From Liolophura sinensis (taxonomy: Eukaryota; Mollusca; Polyplacophora; Chitonida; Chitonidae): a stretch of 64,000 nucleotides of DNA. Positions 1,362 to 31,627 of this stretch are shown here, piece by piece. The notes below the pieces were generated by a model. It had not been told where the DNA came from. It saw nothing but the letters and a program-made list of their open reading frames with translations, and ran no database searches. Each line of letters opens with the position of its first letter. Positions within the stretch are counted from its first letter, which is position 1. The position numbers and the translations under genes are program-made. The DNA is taken from NCBI RefSeq assembly GCF_032854445.1, contig NC_088300.1:80269084-80333083 (forward strand), in the 5' to 3' direction.

Positions 1362-3585
1362 TCCCAAAGTCAAAATATTCACACACCAGCTCAAAGACAC
1401 CAGAAATCTCCGATAGTCAAAGTATCCAGATACAATGTCACAGACATCAGGCAACTCCCAGAATCAAAGTATCCAGATATTAGTCTATGTCACAGACGTC
1501 ATCCCCCCCCCCCCAATTCAAAGTATCCAGATATTAGTCTATGTCATAGATATCAGCCCCCCCCCCTACATCAAAGTATCCTGATATTAGTCTATGTCAT
1601 AGACATTAGCCCCTGCCAAAGCAAAGTATCCAGATATTAGCCTGTCATAGACATCAGCCACCCACAGATCAAATTATCCAGATATTAGTCTATGCTATAG
1701 ACATCAGCCCCCCAAAGCAAAGTATCCAGATATTAGCCTGTCACAGACATCAGCCCCTGCCAAAGCAAAGTATCCAGATATTAGCCTGTCATAGACATCA
1801 GCCACCCACAAATCAAATTATCCAGATATTAGTCTATGCTATAGATATCAGCCTCCCACAAAGCAAAGTATCCAGATATTAGTCTATGTCATAGACATCA
1901 GCCCCCTCAAATCAAAGTATCCAGATATTAGCCTGTCATAGACATCAGTCCCCCCCCCATCAAAGTATCCAGATATTAACCTATGTTATAGATATCAGCC
2001 CCTCCCAAATCAAAGTATCCGGATATTAATCTATGTCATAGACATCAGCCCCCTCACAAATCAAAGTATGCCGATATTAGTCTATGTCATAGATATCAGC
2101 CCCCCCCCCCCAAATCAAAGTATCCAGATATTAGCCTGTCATAGATATCAGCCTCCCACAAATCAAAGTATCCAGGTATTAGTCTATGTCACAGACATCC
2201 CCCCAAATCAAAGTATCCAGATATTAGTTTATGTCATAGACATCAGCTCCCCCTCAAATCAAAGTGTCCAGATAATAGCCTGTCATAGACATCAGCCCCC
2301 CCACAAATCCCCCAAATTCAAGTATCCAGATATTAGTCCCCCCAAATCAAAGTATCCAGATATTAGTCTATGTCATAGACATCAGCCCCCCCCCCCACCA
2401 AATCAAAGTATGCTGATATTAGTCTATGTCATAAACATCACCCCAAATCAAAGTATCCAGATATTAGTCTATGTCATAGACATCAGCTCCCCTTCAAATC
2501 AAAGTTTCCAGATATTAGTCTATCATAGACATCAGCCCCCACAAATCAAAGTATCGAGATATTAGTCTATCATAGATATCAGACCCCTCTCCCAGAATCA
2601 AAGTATCCAGATAATAGTCTGTGTCACAGACATCAGATCTTCTCCTGAAGCATCAAAGGATCCAGATACTAGTCCATGTCATAGACATCAGACTCCACCC
2701 CACCCCCCCAACCAGAATCAAAGTATCCTGATATTAGTCCATGTCATAGACATCAGACCCCTCCCCCCCTTCAAGAATCAAAGTATCCAGATATTAGTCT
2801 GTCACAGACATCAGACCTCCCCCGCCAGAATCAAAGTATCCAGATATTAACCTATGTCATAGATATCAGCCCCCTCCCAATCAAAGTATGCTGATGTTAG
2901 TCTATGTCATAGACATCAGCCCCCCCCACCCCACCCCCCCAAATCAAAGTATCAAGATATTAGTCTGTCAAAGATATCAGACCTCCCCCACCAGAATCAA
3001 AGTATCCAGATATTAACCTATGTCACAGATATCAGCCCCCCCCCCACCAGAATCAAAGTATCCAGATATTAGTCTGTCAAAGATATCAGACCCCTCCCCC
3101 AGAACGAAAGTATCCAGATAATAGTCTGTGTCACAGACATCAGATCTTTTCCCGAAGAATCAAAGGATCCAGATACTGGTCCATGTCACAGACATCAGAA
3201 CCTCCCCACCTCCCAAGAATCAAAGTATCCAGATAATAGTCTTTGTCATAGACATCAGATATCCACCCCCACCCCACCCCACCGCCGCCACAATCAAACT
3301 ATCCAGATATTAGCCAAGGTCACAGCCATCAGTGCCGCACCGCTCCTCCTCCCTTACCCCAGTATCAAAGTATCCAGATACTACATGTATGATGTCATGG
3401 ACACCAGACGTCCCTTTAGAGTCCAAGTATCCTGACACCATGCCAAAGACATCGGACACCTCGTAAAATATCCAAATACTATGTCATGGACACCAGACAA
3501 CTCTCAGAGTGAAAGTATCCTGCCACGTGACCCTTCCCATTCAAAATATCTAGACACCATCTCAAAGACACCAGACACCTACCGG
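1362..3585. repeat. About 40-48-bp tandem repeat with C-tracts
   Basis: Units read ATCAAAGTATCCAGATATTA, GTCTATGTCATAGACATCAG and then a run of 4-13 C. Length varies mainly through the C run and a missing 'TCTATG'. The right end degrades into loosely related units. Confidence 0.92.
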
Positions 3586-4033: not shown

Positions 4034-4136
4034 GAAATAGGGATCTTCTATAATGTCTGATTTTCCTCTTGGATCATATTTTCCCAGAAGTAGAATTTCA
4101 GATGGACTCCCTTTCGGTTTAACTCTCTTCAAATCT
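4034..4136 (-). CDS. ACP1: ACP1 exon 5 (general-acid loop)
   Basis: 103 bases: one base completing a Gln codon, then 34 codons DLKRVKPKG...IIEDPYF. The acceptor is TTGTGACCAG and the donor GTAAGT at 4033-4028. It contains the invariant Asp-Pro of the catalytic acid loop. It ends in phase 0, so a final exon of roughly 25 codons is expected further left. Confidence 0.9.
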
Positions 4137-7100
4137 CTGGTCACAACATATGCAGAATAAAAATTAGTATTGGTATCAAATGTAAGTTCACACAACTTCA
4201 CATGTTCATAATGTTGTCACTAGCAATTAAACAAAATCAACTTAACAAATTAAAAGCAAACCACTAAATTCAATATGGATTTTGAATTATGCATTTGGCT
4301 GCCCTGCTCACCTGTAGGAGACACATGAATTCAAACTTCAGCTCAGTACATAAAGTAATGAAATCGTGAATTTGGTCACTTACGCTAATTCATATGCACA
4401 CAGCGCATGGAACATCCCCCTTGTGTCATTGTGCTTTATATGCATGTAAGGTCAATACATGCTGTATTTTTTTCAGATATCACCTATAACATTTTGTTTA
4501 ACGTTAATTCTGCAACACAATACACTAAGTCAGGAATTTACAGTATTTAATACGCACACACCGAATCAACAAAGGAATATGCCCCTCGTGTTATTGTGCT
4601 CTACGTGTGGAATATCCCCCTCGTGTTATTGTGCTCTACATGTATGGAATATCCCCCTCGTGTTATTGTGCTCTACATGTGTGGAATATGCCCCTCGTGT
4701 CATTGTGCTCTACATGTGTGGAATATGCCCCTCGTGTTATTGTGCTCTACGTGTGGAATATGCCCCTCGTGTTATTGTGCTCTACATGTGTGGAATATCT
4801 CCCTTGTGTTATTGTGCTCTACATGTGTGGAATATCCCCCTTGTGTTATTGTGCTCTACATGTGTGGAATATCCCCCTTGTGTTATTGTGCTCTACATGT
4901 GTGGAATATCCCCCTCGTGTTATTGTGCTCTACATGTGTGGAATATCCCCCTCGTGTTATTGTGCTCTACATGTGTGGAATATGCCCCTCGTGTTATTGT
5001 GCTCTACATGTGTGGAATATGCCCCTCGTGTTATTGTGCTCTACATGTGTGGAACATGCCCCTCGTGTTATTGTGCTCTACATGTGTGGAATATCCCCCT
5101 TGTGTTATTGTGCTCTACATGTGTGGAATATCTCCCTTGTGTTATTGTGCTCTACATGTGTGGAATATGCCCCTCGTGTTATTGTGCTCTACATGTGTGG
5201 AATATCCCCCTCGTGTTATTGTGCTCTACATGTGTGGAATATCCCCCTCGTGTTATTGTGCTCTACATGTGTGGAATATCCCCCTCGTATTATTGTGCTC
5301 TACGTGTGGAATATGTCCCTTGTGTTATTGTGCTCTACATGTGTGGAATATCCCCCCCGTGTTATTGTGCTCTACATGTGTGGAATATCCCCCTCGTGTT
5401 ATTGTGCTCTACATGTGTGGAATATCCCCCTCGTGTTATTGAGCTCTACATGTGTGGAATATCCCCCTCGTGTTATTGTGCTCTACATGTGTGGAATATC
5501 CCCCCCGTGTTATTGTGCTCTACATGTGTGGAATATCTCCCTTGTGTTATTGTGCTCTACATGTGTGGAATATGCCCCTCGTGTTATTGTCCTCTACATG
5601 TGTGGAATATCCCCCTCGTGTTATTGTGCTCTACATGTGTGGACTATCCCCCTCGTGTTATTGTGCTCTACATGTGTGGAATATCCCCCTCGTGTTATTG
5701 TGATCTACATGTATGGACTATCCCCCTCATGTTATTGTGCTCTACATGTGTGGAATATCCCCCTCACGTTATTGTGCTCTACATGTGTGGAATATCCCCC
5801 TCGTGTTATTGTGCTCTACATGTGTGCAAGCCCTGAGCTGAATACATTTTGTTTAGCATGGTTTTACCTGTTACTGGACGCCGACGCTGAGGGTATGCAT
5901 AAGTCACACCTGTACAATGTAATACTCACTGTATGTTCTCCTTATCCATTCCAAAAATATATTTAAACTTGGTGAAATCTTCAGCAGTGATCTGAAATGG
6001 AACATAATTATATGAAGTAACTGCCCGAGTGCACGTTATGTCTGATATCTTCATTCTAATTATGAAGTTTACGGATCTTGCTTATGTCACATATACCACT
6101 ATCTGAGTGGTCCACATTAAATGACTTAGATGATCCCCTGGAGGTGGATCCTGGACACCCAATACATAATCCTGACAAACATCCTCATACCCAGCTTGGA
6201 TGAGAAAGGGCAGAGAGGACAGAACATCCTCATACCCAGCTTGGATGAGAAAGGCTAGAGAGGACAGAACATCCTCATACCCAGCTTGGATGAGAAAGGC
6301 CAGAGAGGACAGAACATCCTCATACCCAGCTAGGATGAGAAAGGCTAGAGAGGACAGAACATCCTCATATCCAGCTTGGATGAGAAAGGCCAGAGAGGAC
6401 AGAACATCCTCATACCCAGCTTGGATAAGAAAGGCTAGAGAGGACAGAACATCCTCATATCCAGCTTGGATGAGAAAGGCCAGAGAGGACAGAACATCCT
6501 CATACCCAGCTTGGATGAGAAAGGCTAGAGAGGACAGAACTGACACTCACCTAAAATTTCAAGCTTTTTCTTTTGTATCTCTATGACAACACAGTACATG
6601 GACTAATGTCTAAAACCACTTTTTGTTCAATCTGTAAGTATTCCATGTCATTATTTGTACAATGCGGACATGAGTTGAAAACAGCCACTTTTGATATGTG
6701 TATTAAGGTGTGGTTTTCTAGTAGTTAAGTTGACAAGGAAACTACACAACATGGCTGGCAGGAAAACCCTCACCTGTGTAAGCTTGCTTACACTGTAATT
6801 CTTACTAAACATTAGTTTTAAGAAAAAAAAGACTTTTTCACACAAACACAGTTAAAATATTTGTATCAATATGTATGTCGACAACTCCCTAGAGTCTTTG
6901 GCACTTTGCTAACATTAAGAAAAACATAAATAAATAGGAGTGTATGATTACTATGTCATCAACATGCAGGATAAGGTGGCTGAACTTCTGTTGTCTGACC
7001 TCAAGCCTAATGTTGATATTATTGCTAACATTCAGCTCACACCTTGTCTACATCATTTTTAAAACTCATGTTTACAAAATCACATGCAAAGCTGAAAATG

Positions 7101-10100
7101 ATAAATGGTGTAGTCATGAAATTTAAGATGATGGAACACACATATCTTAATTGACCTCAGAGTTATAAAATCTGCTTGGTTCTGCAGATCTCACAGGAAT
7201 TTCTCTGCGCAAATTTAATTACTGATCTGTTGTACAAGTGGTCAAGAGATTTTGCCCAATTAATGGGCAATGCCAGAGAACAATTATTGGCATTTCCTCT
7301 TACTAAACTAATGAGCTGGCATTTGTACATAAAACTGCAAAGGGTTCGTACGCTCTCTGTGTTTACATGCCTGACAAAGTTCTCACACAGCTAATGATAA
7401 TATTTCATTAACACTGGTGGAGTATTTGTCCCAGCCGAATGTGTTGTAGTTGTTGTCCCTGAGTGTGCCAGTTAGGACACAGTTTAGGATAAGACAAGTT
7501 AGCCATGGTGGACACGTGGAGGCAAATCTCTGAGGAGAACTACAGCATGCAATCTCTACAAAGTGGTAAGTTAATCAGCTTCTTGTTAGGGCTGACAAAT
7601 GCTCCAGTAAATGTTTACACTTACATCCTCATACATCAGTGTACAGTACGCGAGGGTGTTTCCCGTCAATGTCAACAAGTCACTTCACTCTTTCGTTACC
7701 GTGACATCTCAACACCAAAATTCATTTCAAAATGTTTCCGTCCTACTTTACATAATAATTAGGCTTCAATAATAATCTTTTTTCTAGCACCTTCATCACT
7801 TGCCTTCTGTTCTGTCACCTCCATCACTTCACTAGTCTGGCTCAGCTATCACTTATTTTCTCTATTCTGCCACCTTCATCACTTATCTATTCTGGCACCT
7901 CCACCACTTCTCTATTCTGGCACCTCCACCACTTCTCTATTCCGCCACCTTCATCACTTATCTATTCTGGCACCTTCACCACTTCTCTATTCTGACGCCT
8001 CCATCACTTCTCTATTCTGGCACCTCCACCACTTCTCTATTCCGGCACCTCCATCACTTATCTTTTCTGGCACCTCCACCACTTCTCTATTCTGACACCT
8101 CCATCACTTATCTATTCTGGCACCTCCATCACTTATCTATTCTGGCACCTCCACCACTTCACTATTCTGACACCTCCATCACTTATCTATTCTGGCACCT
8201 CCACCACTTCTCTATTCTGACACCTCCATCACTTATCTATTCTGGCACCTCCATCAATTCTCCTCTCCTCTGCCACCTCCATCACTTATCTTCTCTCTTC
8301 TGACACCTTCATCACTTATCTATTCTGGCACCTCCACCACTTCTCTATTCTGGCACCTTCACCACTTCTCTATTCTGACACCTCCATTACTTATATATTC
8401 TGGCACCTCCACCACTTCTCTATTCTGACACCTCCTTCACTTATCTATTCTGGCACCTCCGCCACTTCTCTATTCTGAGACCTCCATCACTTATCTATTG
8501 TGGCACCTCCACCACTTCTCTATTCTGCCACCTCCATCACTTATCTATTCTGACACCTCCATCACTTATCTATTCTCAAACCTCCATCACTTATCTATTG
8601 TGGCACCTCCATCACTTATCTATTCTCGCACCTCCATTCTGACACCTCCATCACTTATCTATTCTGGCACCTACACCACTGAACTATTCTGCCACTTACG
8701 TTACTTATCTTCTCTCTTCTGGCACCTTCATCACTTATCTATTCTGGCACCTCCACCACTTCTCCATTCTGGCACCTCCACCACTTCTCTATTCTGACAC
8801 CTCCATCACTTATCTATTCTGGCACCTCCACCACTTCTCTATTCTGACACCTCCATCACTTATCTATTCTGGCACCTCCACCACTTCTCTATTCTGAGAC
8901 CTCCATCACTTATCTATTGTGGCACCTCCACCACTTCTCTATTCTGCCACCTCCATCACTTATCTATTCTGACATCTCCATCACTTATCTATTCTCAAAC
9001 CTCCATCACTTATCTATTCTCAGACCTCCATCACTTATCTATTGTGGCACCTCCATCACTTATCTATTCTCGCACCTCCATTCTGACACCTCCATCACTT
9101 ATCTATTCTGGCACCTACACCACTGAACTATTCTGCCACTTACGTCACTTATCTATTCTCGCACCTTCATCACTTATCTATTTCTCGCACCTCCATTCTG
9201 ACACCTCCATCACTTATCTATTCTGGCGCCTCCATCACTTATCTATTCTGGCACCTCCATTCTGACACCTCCATCACTTATCTAATCTGGCACCTCCATC
9301 ACTGAACTATTCTGGTACTGGGGGCCTCCTTGGCTCAGTTGGTTAGTGTGCTAGTGCAGCGTAATGACCCAGGAGTCTCTCACCAAAGCGGTCACTCTGA
9401 GTTCAAGTCCAGCCCATGCTGGCTTCCTCTCCGACTGTAAGTGGGAAGGTCTGACAACAACCTGCGGTGGGCCTGGGTTTCCCTGGGTTTCCTCCTATCA
9501 TAATGCTGGCCGCCGTCGTATAAGTGAAATATTCTTGAGTACGACGTAAAACACAAATCAAATAAATAAATAAAATATTCTGGTACCCCCATCACCACAT
9601 CTTTTGTGGCACTTCCATCACTTTATCTTCAAATTAGGAGCTTTTACCACTTATCATAAGTTCTAGCACCCCTATCATTTACTGTCTATTCTAGCACCTC
9701 CACACTTACCTTTTATTCTGTCATCTCCATTACGCATGTTCTGTAATCTAATCCCTCAGCCAATACTCTTTAGTCTATTCAGTACTTGCCCACCCCTTAC
9801 CAGTGGCTGTGTAATCCATCTTTACACACATGTACTTGTGTAGCTGTATGATTCATGCTTACCTGTCTAGCTGTATGATTCATGCTTACCTGTCTACCGG
9901 TATGATCCATGCTTACCTGTCTAGCTGTATGATCCATGCTTACCTGTCTAGCTGTATGATTCATGCTTGCCTGTCTAGCTATATGATTCATGCTTACCGA
10001 TCTAGCTGTATGATTCATGCTTACCTGCCTAGCTGTATGATCCATGCTTACCTGTCTAGCTGTATGATCCATGCTTACCTGTCTACCCGTATGATCCATA

Positions 10101-10850
10101 CTTACTGATCTAGCTGTATGATCCTTGCTTACCTGTCTAGCTGTATGATCCATGATTACCCGTCTAGCTGTATGATCCTTGCTTACCTGTCTAGCTGTAT
10201 GATTCATGCTTACCTGTTTAACTGTATGATCCATGCTTACCGATCTAGCAGAATGATTCATGCTTACCTGTCTAGCTGTATGATCCATGCTTACCTGTCT
10301 AGCTGTATGATCCATGCTTACCTGTCTAGCTGTATGATCCATGCTCAGGCCATGTTTCTTCATCACCGCGATTGCTCTATCATCTGGAGGATTACCTATC
10401 TGGTATGTGGATGTAGCTGCACTGTCTACCAGCCACTGAAAAGGCACAGCACCATATCAGGGCAAAACCAGCCATATCAACAAATGATACCAGATACAGT
10501 TCATGTACCCGTATATGCAAACTAACACTGTGTTAAGTACCAGGTAAAATATTGATCTGTATTTAATAAAAATGTGATGAGAAGGGCATAGCTAGAGCAC
10601 TCAGCTACGTGTATATTGTACATAACAGCTGTATTAAGTCTTTAATAAGATCACCTGTGTATTATACAAATCAGACTTTTCAGGCAGGGAAGTCTCCACG
10701 TAATTTTATTTTTGTAAAGAAGTACACATATTTTTCAATAGAAATTGAAGACACCATGGATCAACTATGCTCAGACCTTGTCTTGCAGTCCTCTTTCTTT
10801 CAGTATGTGATTGAATATACCCTCTGCCATGGTTGACCTGCATATGTTAC
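4034..10850 (-). CDS. ACP1: Low-molecular-weight protein tyrosine phosphatase, exons 2-5 (partial gene)
   Basis: Seen: four minus-strand exons whose phases join without a break (10850-10777, 10435-10322, 5991-5930, 4136-4034). They give 117 contiguous codons, preceded by the last two bases of a Gly codon. The product starts at the phosphate-binding loop (GNICRST, supplying the loop Cys, Arg and Ser), passes through the substrate-specificity segment TYQIGNPPDD and ends at the general-acid loop IIEDPYF. Known: this family hydrolyses phosphotyrosine in the cytosol by a Cys nucleophile in C-x5-R-S, with the Asp of the DPY(Y/F) loop as acid; the usual length is about 157 residues. The nucleophilic Cys should lie in exon 1, which I could not find right of 10850. 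The last exon, expected to encode the C-terminal helix, is not seen left of 4034 and is probably outside the window. The second loop Tyr is Phe. The introns are mostly minisatellites. Identification is firm; expression is not testable here. Confidence 0.93.
4393..4448. repeat. Isolated unit of the 37-bp array
   Basis: GGAACATCCCCCTTGTGTCA and TTGTGCTTTATATGCATG match the 37-bp unit but stand about 130 bases before the main array. The stretch between holds nothing I recognise. Confidence 0.75.
4577..5826. repeat. 37-bp tandem repeat, about 34 copies
   Basis: Unit words: CTACATGTGTGGAATATCCC and CCTCGTGTTATTGTG. Because 37 leaves remainder 1 on division by 3 and no unit carries a stop, all three plus frames stay open for hundreds of codons; these are not genes. 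The array lies in the ACP1 intron between exons 5 and 4. Confidence 0.95.
5930..5991 (-). CDS. ACP1: ACP1 exon 4
   Basis: 62 bases, phase 0 in and phase 2 out: ITAEDFTKFKYIFGMDKENI plus CA. The acceptor is CCATTTCAG and the donor GTGAGT at 5929-5924. It corresponds to the family segment ITKEDFxxFDYILCMD; the usual Cys before MD is Gly here. It follows directly on ...DHTARQ of exon 3. Confidence 0.9.
6178..6542. repeat. 45-bp tandem repeat, 8 copies
   Basis: Words CATCCTCATACCCAGCTTGG and ATGAGAAAGGCCAGAGAGG. It is exactly 15 codons, so both strands are open (minus: VLSSLAFLIQAGYED). Alternating GGCC/GGCT variants suggest a 90-bp higher-order unit. It lies within an ACP1 intron. Confidence 0.95.
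6543..7763. other. Unique intronic DNA of ACP1
   Basis: A/T-rich, with only short frames; the only item of note is the possible plus-strand exon at 7505. Confidence 0.7.
7505..7568 (+). other. Possible short 5' exon on plus strand inside an ACP1 intron
   Basis: AGCCATGG gives a good start context. The frame reads MVDTWRQISEENYSMQSLQS plus one base and then meets a strong donor G|GTAAGT. No following exon with matching phase was found before LIX1L, so this may be chance. Confidence 0.2.
7764..9316. repeat. About 25-bp 'CACCTCCATCACTTATCTAT' array, long copy
   Basis: Some 60 units such as GGCACCTCCACCACTTCTCT and GACACCTCCATCACTTATC. Blocks of several hundred bases are themselves duplicated (around 8480-8700 and 8900-9130). 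It continues after the SINE. Confidence 0.93.
9317..9573 (+). mobile_element. tRNA-derived SINE, full length, inserted in a minisatellite
   Basis: The head GGGGGCCTCC..TGGCTCAG carries an A-box, and GAGTTCAAGTCC a B-box of RNA polymerase III type. The body includes CATAATGCTGG and the tail ends ATTCTTGAGTACGACGTAAA then (AAAT)n. The flanks repeat TATTCTGGTAC on both sides, a target-site duplication taken from the host array unit. This is the reference copy for the other fragments. Confidence 0.88.
9574..9760. repeat. Decayed end of the CACCTCC array beyond the SINE
   Basis: Units such as GGTACCCCCATCACC and TCTAGCACCTCCACACTTAC, increasingly diverged. Confidence 0.8.
9836..10342 (-). repeat. 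27-bp exon-end/splice-donor minisatellite of ACP1
   Basis: Read on the minus strand, each unit is the last 21 bases of exon 3 (codons MDHTARQ) followed by the first six bases of the intron (GTAAGC, read as Val-Ser). The native copy is 10342-10322. Eighteen further copies run to 9836 without a frame break, translating as VSMDHTARQ with scattered substitutions such as VSMNHTARS, VSKDHTARR and VSMDHTGRQ. Nearly every unit boundary keeps GT and most read CAG|GTAAGC; one unit starts GCAAGC, losing GT. The frame then stops at 9797-9799. Whether the copies are exonic, intronic or alternatively used cannot be decided from sequence alone. Confidence 0.93.
10322..10435 (-). CDS. ACP1: ACP1 exon 3 (specificity segment)
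   Basis: 38 codons, phase 0 at both ends, reading WLVDSAATSTYQIGNPPDD through HGLSMDHTARQ. The acceptor is CCTTTTCAG. The first donor is CAG|GTAAGC with GT at 10321-10320. The Tyr and Gln of TYQIG occupy the variable positions that distinguish vertebrate isoforms. The segment resembles the vertebrate slow/B-type exon (AATSGYEIGNPPD) rather than the alternative exon; no second alternative exon was found. Immediately beyond the donor lie 18 in-frame copies of the exon end plus donor (see the 27-bp array). Confidence 0.92.
10777..10850 (-). CDS. ACP1: ACP1 exon 2 (P-loop)
   Basis: 74 bases: two bases finishing a Gly codon, then 24 codons from NICRSTMAEG to GLQDK. The acceptor is TTATTACAG at 10851 and the donor is GTCTGA at 10776-10771, a weaker match than its neighbours. 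The Arg and Ser of the phosphatase signature C-x5-R-(S/T) are here. The position of the exon break inside the P-loop Gly codon fits the family's known gene structure. Confidence 0.9.

Positions 10851-12344: not shown

Positions 12345-31627
<19,283 letters not shown>

Follow-up and report, generated by a model that had tools for sequence, protein, structure and literature searches.

A mirage minisatellite at the end of ACP1 exon 3 in the chiton Liolophura sinensis and related ladders of splice donors in the same genome

We analyzed a window of 64,000 nucleotides of the genome of the chiton Liolophura sinensis (contig NC_088300.1, positions 80,269,084 to 80,333,083 of the forward strand) in which exon 3 of a gene that, on its protein matches, is ACP1, encoding the low molecular weight tyrosine phosphatase, ends in the first of 19 tandem copies of a 27-base unit. 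The unit spans the exon-intron boundary, and the array is by definition a mirage minisatellite, the name given to amphioxus minisatellites that multiply exon-intron boundaries and are unstable in length (in the sections of PMC3087553 and PMC3902484 that we consulted). The array is real and of a kind already known from amphioxus, and in-frame use of its copies is possible, but we think it quite probable that it is a tolerated passenger, that the first splice donor (donor 1) is the one most likely used, and that copies 2 to 19 are removed with the intron. The wider class of such ladders in this chiton is more interesting than the ACP1 array alone.

The array lies on the minus strand at 9833..10345, and its unit reads AGC ATG GAT CAT ACA GCT AGA CAG GTA. 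Tandem Repeats Finder reported 513 bases with a period of 27, 19.0 copies, 89% matches, 0% indels, and a score of 807. Together with a table of the individual copies, this showed that exon 3 itself ends in copy 1 (10345-10322), after which come the first intron base at 10321 and 18 further copies, confirming the original prediction, made from this DNA without database searches, that the exon-intron junction is itself the repeat unit. That prediction also had the number and the frame of the 18 extra copies right, but it took the unit to be 21 exon bases plus GTAAGC, whereas it consists of 24 exon bases and GTA and encodes SMDHTARQV (nine codons, one of them intronic). In copy 1, the AGC of GTAAGC belongs to the exon (CTG/AGCATGG), and GTAAGC is the junction between copies. 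Exon CTG flanks copy 1 on the left, and intron CATGTG flanks the last copy on the right.

Exact CAG/GTAAGC donors are present in 13 of the 19 copies (1, 2, 3, 5, 6, 8, 10, 11, 12, and 15 to 18), TCG/GTAAGC is present in 2 (4 and 13), and the remaining 4 carry weaker donors, namely, CGG/GTAATC (7), TCA/GTAAGT (9), CAG/GCAAGC (14), and CAA/GTACAT (19). The idea of about 18 near-consensus donors spaced 27 bases apart holds insofar as most are strong, but they are not equal, the 18 extra copies having 12 strong and 2 medium donors. The reading frame of exon 3 runs without a stop from 10456 to 9797 (219 amino acids), with the first in-frame stop 522 nt beyond donor 1, and the coding exon after exon 3 begins ITAEDF at 5991 in phase 0. 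Because the next exon is in phase 0 and the 27-base unit keeps an open frame, every rung of the ladder would join in frame to the ITAEDF exon, as had been proposed. Predicted structures of near-perfect repeats are known to mislead, and an AlphaFold prediction for the 219-amino-acid frame, made from a single sequence, gave one long strand-only model (mean predicted local distance difference test score, 67.9) that was uninformative and was not used.

We propose that tandem duplication of a 27-base stretch across the 5' splice site at the end of ACP1 exon 3, followed by expansion, produced the 19 copies. An ancestral segment followed by CATGTG would, as a single segment, account for both edges of the array (CTG/AGC and GTA/CATGTG), and the strong donor GTAAGC would have been created only where the GTA of one copy joins the AGC of the next. 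With an approximate matrix based on human donors, the junction-made donor scored 11.7 bits versus 5.9 bits for the presumed ancestral CAG/GTACAT. Copies 1 to 3 do not differ from one another, and copies 4, 9, and 13 share a two-base variant, a pattern among copies of one locus in one assembly that looks like ordinary minisatellite turnover. We infer that the repeat length is unstable, and copy-number polymorphism is likely by analogy only. Tandem repeats with a period of at least 10 make up 30.5% of the window. For comparison, the figures for five 8-kb stretches chosen at round coordinates were 2.8, 4.1, 15.7, 7.4, and 0.9%.

Donor 1 is most likely the one used because, paired with the upstream acceptor, it would give the shortest exon, and because it is the first donor to be transcribed. 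Since the unit is nine codons, only one of them intronic, splicing at a later rung would insert SMDHTARQV repeats and leave the protein unbroken, and occasional use of such a rung would therefore do little harm. The expected donor 1 junction (sequence unique to exon 3, one unit, and exon 5) is CATGGCCTGAGCATGGATCATACAGCTAGACAGATCACTGCTGAAG, and a later-rung junction would read CAGGTAAGCATGGATCATACAGCTAGACAGATCACTGCTGAAG.

Mirages have been described in the amphioxus genes Adh3, BflGb6, and BflGb9, the last two encoding globins (PMC3087553), and in TnC and PGBD5 (PMC3902484), and the sections of these papers that we drew on report regular splicing by reverse transcription-PCR. The units given in PMC3087553, in the part consulted, are 10 to 72 bases long in Adh3 and 150 to 160 bases long in the globins, and the 27-base ACP1 unit falls within the published range. 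In both animals the unit lies across an exon-intron boundary, the AG/GT signals are multiplied, and the first copy is intact; the chiton case differs in occurring in a mollusc, in having a 27-base unit of which 24 bases are exonic, in having all of its rungs in frame and open, and in being known here from DNA alone. The Rogers model and the amphioxus globin model, in which introns are gained through tandem duplication of AG/GT proto-splice sites (both as cited in the part of PMC3087553 consulted), likewise involve a duplicated AG/GT site, but ACP1 shows no apparent new intron, its copies sitting at one existing junction.

The original prediction had called a minisatellite spanning such a junction unusual. 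This is not supported as stated, given the amphioxus genes and ten other genes of this chiton with the same structure. We searched the whole assembly (609,464,459 bases in 632 contigs; described in the consulted part of PMC11068029 as 609.5 Mb in 632 scaffolds, with the species renamed L. sinensis in a correction, PMC12441733) for three exact donor words spaced 20 to 50 bases apart, and arrays were taken among the matches listed, mostly on contig C1 (C1 to C5 for one search). We examined 74 arrays, comprising 22 of the 23 listed for CAGGTAAG and 35 plus 17 from other donor words; the 5' edge lay outside the examined piece in at least 8 of the 74 (L011, L035, L041, L076, L077, L079, L082, and L085). 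An array was accepted if the peptide up to the first donor matched a known protein and if the exon end (positions -24 to +6) recurred downstream at 21 or more of 30 positions. For random pairs of stretches, this recurrence had a median of 15, a 99th percentile of 18, and a maximum of 30, some pairs sharing a repeat. The gene identifications rest on peptides that were chosen by eye and searched afterwards.

Ten of the 74 arrays were accepted on both counts, making 11 cases with ACP1. The exon ends multiplied in this way belong to POLR3A (3e-9 against the PDB), a GH31 glucosidase (4.4e-14), a protein with TSP1 repeats (3.5e-4, below the Pfam cut-off), a protein with a PHD-like finger (1.4e-3, likewise under that cut-off), a BTAF1/Mot1-like helicase (9.8e-19, the matched chains being named helicase-like protein), a protein with a NARF/CIAO3-like Fe-hydrogenase domain (1.8e-12), LEDGF (9.5e-10), a GT18 enzyme (1.6e-11), BPHL/valacyclovir hydrolase (unit of 24 bases; 2.4e-12), and RRP7A (2.5e-6); the names BTAF1, NARF/CIAO3, and BPHL are ones that we assigned. 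Several candidates were dropped. The peptide of a fucosidase-like locus (L037) matched with an E value of 1.9e-11, yet its exon end recurred at only 17 of 30 positions, and L019 and L081 reached 18 of 30, the 99th percentile of random pairs. The exon end recurred at 20 or more of 30 positions in L013, L024 (GMC-like by eye), L025 (DERA-like by eye), L032, and L049, with no significant database match, and in L074, with a Branch match at an E value of 0.044; we regard these six as unproven. L043, L058, and L062 look coding and gave no Pfam match.

As a blind control, we searched three-frame composites of the array edges of L012 to L030 against Pfam. Credible matches were found at the 5' edges of 2 of 19 loci (GH31 and, at 0.006 and below the cut-off, PHD_5) and at the 3' edges of 0 of 16; an additional DUF6964 match at a 5' edge was taken for a repeat artefact. 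This control had low power: it missed the TSP1 protein, although a search with the TSP1 peptide by itself gave the match, and Pfam at no point gave a match for POLR3A. One array sequence occurs at both C2:7746953 (+) and C2:8306058 (-), on opposite strands about 560 kb apart, and is either an inverted duplication or an assembly duplicate.

In 6 of the 11 cases (POLR3A, the BTAF1-like and NARF/CIAO3-like genes, LEDGF, GT18, and RRP7A), use of any later donor would bring in a stop or shift the frame, none of the later donor-like copies being in frame ahead of the first stop in the exon frame. The distance from donor 1 to that stop is 6 to 99 nt, so rungs further on, beyond the sequence examined, are excluded too, and since these six genes have no usable later donor, donor 1 must serve there. 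In POLR3A, the exon end is multiplied in 44-base units (L022, from 1874, minus strand; C1:14888600-14891500), and donor 1 (GTAAAT) scored 8.5 bits versus 12.6 bits for the ten later donors walked (GTAAGT), although only donor 1 keeps the frame. POLR3A and RRP7A are generally essential, and donor 1 must therefore be used enough in both. The simplest reading of these sequences is that donor 1 usually wins and that the ladder leaves as intron. Usable later copies number seven in GH31, seven in the TSP1 protein, four in the PHD protein, and one in BPHL, and in ACP1 all 15 copies that pass the same 12/15 test are usable.

In the sections of the literature consulted, mirages have so far been described in a handful of amphioxus genes, and the open-access literature that we searched, which covered chiton repeat papers in small part, held no report of one in a mollusc. 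The presence of 11 such genes in a single mollusc, some of them as basic as POLR3A and RRP7A, suggests that mirages arise wherever minisatellites are abundant. Near-identical donors at a fixed spacing, of which only donor 1 is productive, also offer a natural test of spliceosomal choice between tandem 5' splice sites of equal or greater strength, and RNA-seq data for L. sinensis have already been deposited under SAMN35319765 to SAMN35319769 (according to the part of PMC11068029 consulted).

Three-rung ladders of CAGGTAAG numbered 895 (with overlapping matches) versus 285 for the reversed word, but CAGGTAAG also occurs 2.06 times as often as its reversal (30,216 versus 14,643), leaving a per-word excess of 1.5-fold. 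We therefore rejected the idea that splice sites strongly seed arrays. The raw counts for other words and their reversals, without word-frequency normalization, were 1557/190 for CAGGTGAG, 458/309 for AAGGTAAG, 501/263 for GAGGTAAG, and 1560/555 for CAGGTATG. Two comparisons were made among the matches listed on C1, without control for gene density. The first 6 Mb held 12 of 23 CAGGTAAG arrays, where 1.7 would be expected given the listed range (P, 2e-8). Of 13 AAGGTAAG starts, two of which are about 1 kb apart, 10 were no more than 10 Mb from an end, against an expectation of 2.7 (P, 2e-5). The distance from ACP1 to the end of C6 is 2.2 Mb. In humans, minisatellites are known to form near chromosome ends, and our observations fit such a source for the ladders, with exon ends caught by chance because the donor word exceeds its reversal only 1.5-fold once word frequency is allowed for. 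A rough extrapolation from 4 verified genes among 22 arrays, over about 80 Mb, suggests tens of affected genes for CAGGTAAG and hundreds overall. A bolder reading, which we consider unlikely, is that exon-end multiplication is genome-wide, biased toward chromosome ends, continuing, and spread over hundreds of genes, with ACP1 an extreme case yielding length-variable phosphatases that differ between individuals and with the frame-breaking ladders obeying a first-donor-wins rule even against stronger downstream donors.

For ACP1 itself, we regard it as improbable that the ladder is used, with mRNAs ending exon 3 at many rungs and carrying 0 to 18 extra SMDHTARQV units after ...DHTARQ, differing among individuals and perhaps among cells. 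The in-frame rungs, the 522 nt without a stop, the 13 identical strong donors, and the identity of the three exon-side copies all speak for such use, but the copies show no sign of it. Among the 18 extra copies there are 19 distinct changes, of which 6 are synonymous, 12 change an amino acid, and 1 would make a stop if alone; this last is paired with a neighboring change in all three copies that bear it. The synonymous excess is not significant in this small sample (6 of 19 changes against an opportunity of 15/81; P for 6 or more, 0.12), and the donor positions, 9 of the 27 in the unit, hold 7 of the 19 distinct changes, which is no added conservation, again in a small sample. Thus, in these few copies, neither coding nor donor function has visibly marked the array. 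Related ladders in the same genome could not be used in this way in the 6 frame-breaking cases, and amphioxus mirages reportedly splice regularly. The length-variable phosphatase put forward in the original prediction is thus unsupported as stated, though possible: coding and donor constraint are not visible in the copies, and later donors would break the protein in over half of the chiton cases. Vertebrate ACP1 is alternatively spliced between two exon 3 variants, which concerns the same exon of the same enzyme, whereas the chiton repeats only the last 24 bases of exon 3.

Several points weigh against our preferred reading that donor 1 is used and the other copies leave with the intron. The evidence for ACP1 comes from genomic sequence only, and long in-frame isoforms are possible. 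The unit is a multiple of three in 6 of the 11 cases, which does not differ significantly from one third (P, 0.12), although its direction fits occasional use of later donors. Only in ACP1 could every later donor-like copy that was scored, 15 in number, be used, and the argument from the frame-breaking genes therefore does not bind it. SR proteins can favor proximal donors or shift competing donors (PMC5585400, in the part consulted), and the TSP1 and PHD identifications are the ones that fall below Pfam cut-offs.

That the gene is a decaying copy, so that splicing of the array is immaterial, is very unlikely. The exons, which follow the vertebrate numbering, all lie on the minus strand. Exon 2 (10777..10850; GNICRSTMAEGIFNHILKERGLQDK, donor AAG/GTCTGA) matches PF01451 with an E value of 1.1e-4, its borders being set by eye. 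Exon 3 (10322..10435; WLVDSAATSTYQIGNPPDDRAIAVMKKHGLSMDHTARQ, acceptor TTTCAG/TGG, donor 1 CAG/GTAAGC), with borders read from the sequence, gave an E value of 5.7e-8 for its peptide against Pfam LMWPc and of 2.8e-11 against LMPTP structures, the latter alignment covering all 38 residues to the end of the exon. The next coding exon, vertebrate exon 5 (5930..5991; beginning ITAEDFTKFKYIFGMDKENI, acceptor TTTCAG/ATC, donor CA/GTGAGT), came from a six-frame motif search, and vertebrate exon 6 (4034..4136; DLKRVKPKGSPSEILLLGKYDPRGKSDIIEDPYF, donor TTC/GTAAGT) came from a motif search, both with borders by eye. The likely last exon (ESGMKPFETVYEQC) lies left of the window, at L071 3380-3680 on the minus strand (C6 ~80,266,460-80,266,760); it reads FETVYEQC, departs from the family frame after EQC, and reaches a stop soon after, so that, if this is indeed the last exon, the reference carries a frame shift there, either real or a sequencing error.

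This departure, and the failure of a motif search of the window to find exon 1, would suit a decaying copy, but exon 1 is short and a single base may be a sequencing error. Exons 2, 3, 5, and 6 are open, have splice sites, and retain the GNICRS and EDPY motifs. A PF01451 profile search of the genome gave two matches, exons 2 and 3 of this same gene, making it the sole genomic place matched (exons 5 to 7 were unscored, and weak copies could be missed). We found no second copy of the array locus in the assembly, no second whole copy of exon 3 in a motif search covering 16 kb of minus-strand sequence, and, by profile and DNA searches of the genome, no second or spliced ACP1 copy that would record the donor used. 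The sole other DNA match to the array locus, at C4:12179643 (68%), was rejected as a copy, being a different array. At L004 (~2160-3000; C4:12178143-12181515), each unit of an array contains two donor-like words, ACAGGTAAG and ACAGGTGAG. Next to it lies an unrelated array that has CATACAGCTAG in common with the ACP1 unit.

It is hardly credible that the array length is an assembly artefact, since, although tandem arrays are hard to assemble and the coverage by HiFi reads (SRX20411988) is 14X, 513 bases are short against a mean HiFi read of 8,347 bases (both figures from the part of PMC11068029 consulted) and scattered substitutions distinguish the copies in a way unlike a copying error.

The same ACP1 intron holds a second in-frame array (window 6174-6540, minus strand) with 8.2 copies of a 45-base unit that reads VLSSLAFLIQAGYED; this array lies a short way upstream of the exon that begins at 5991. 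A 15-base inverted repeat (87%) at 9795-9809 and 10430-10444 pairs the region of the exon 3 acceptor with a stretch just past the array and may be due to chance. Elsewhere in the window, interspersed elements at ~9320-9580 and 26913-27210, which resemble tRNA-derived short interspersed nuclear elements, start with GGGGCCTCC(G/T)TGGCTCAGT and end near AAATAAATAAATA.

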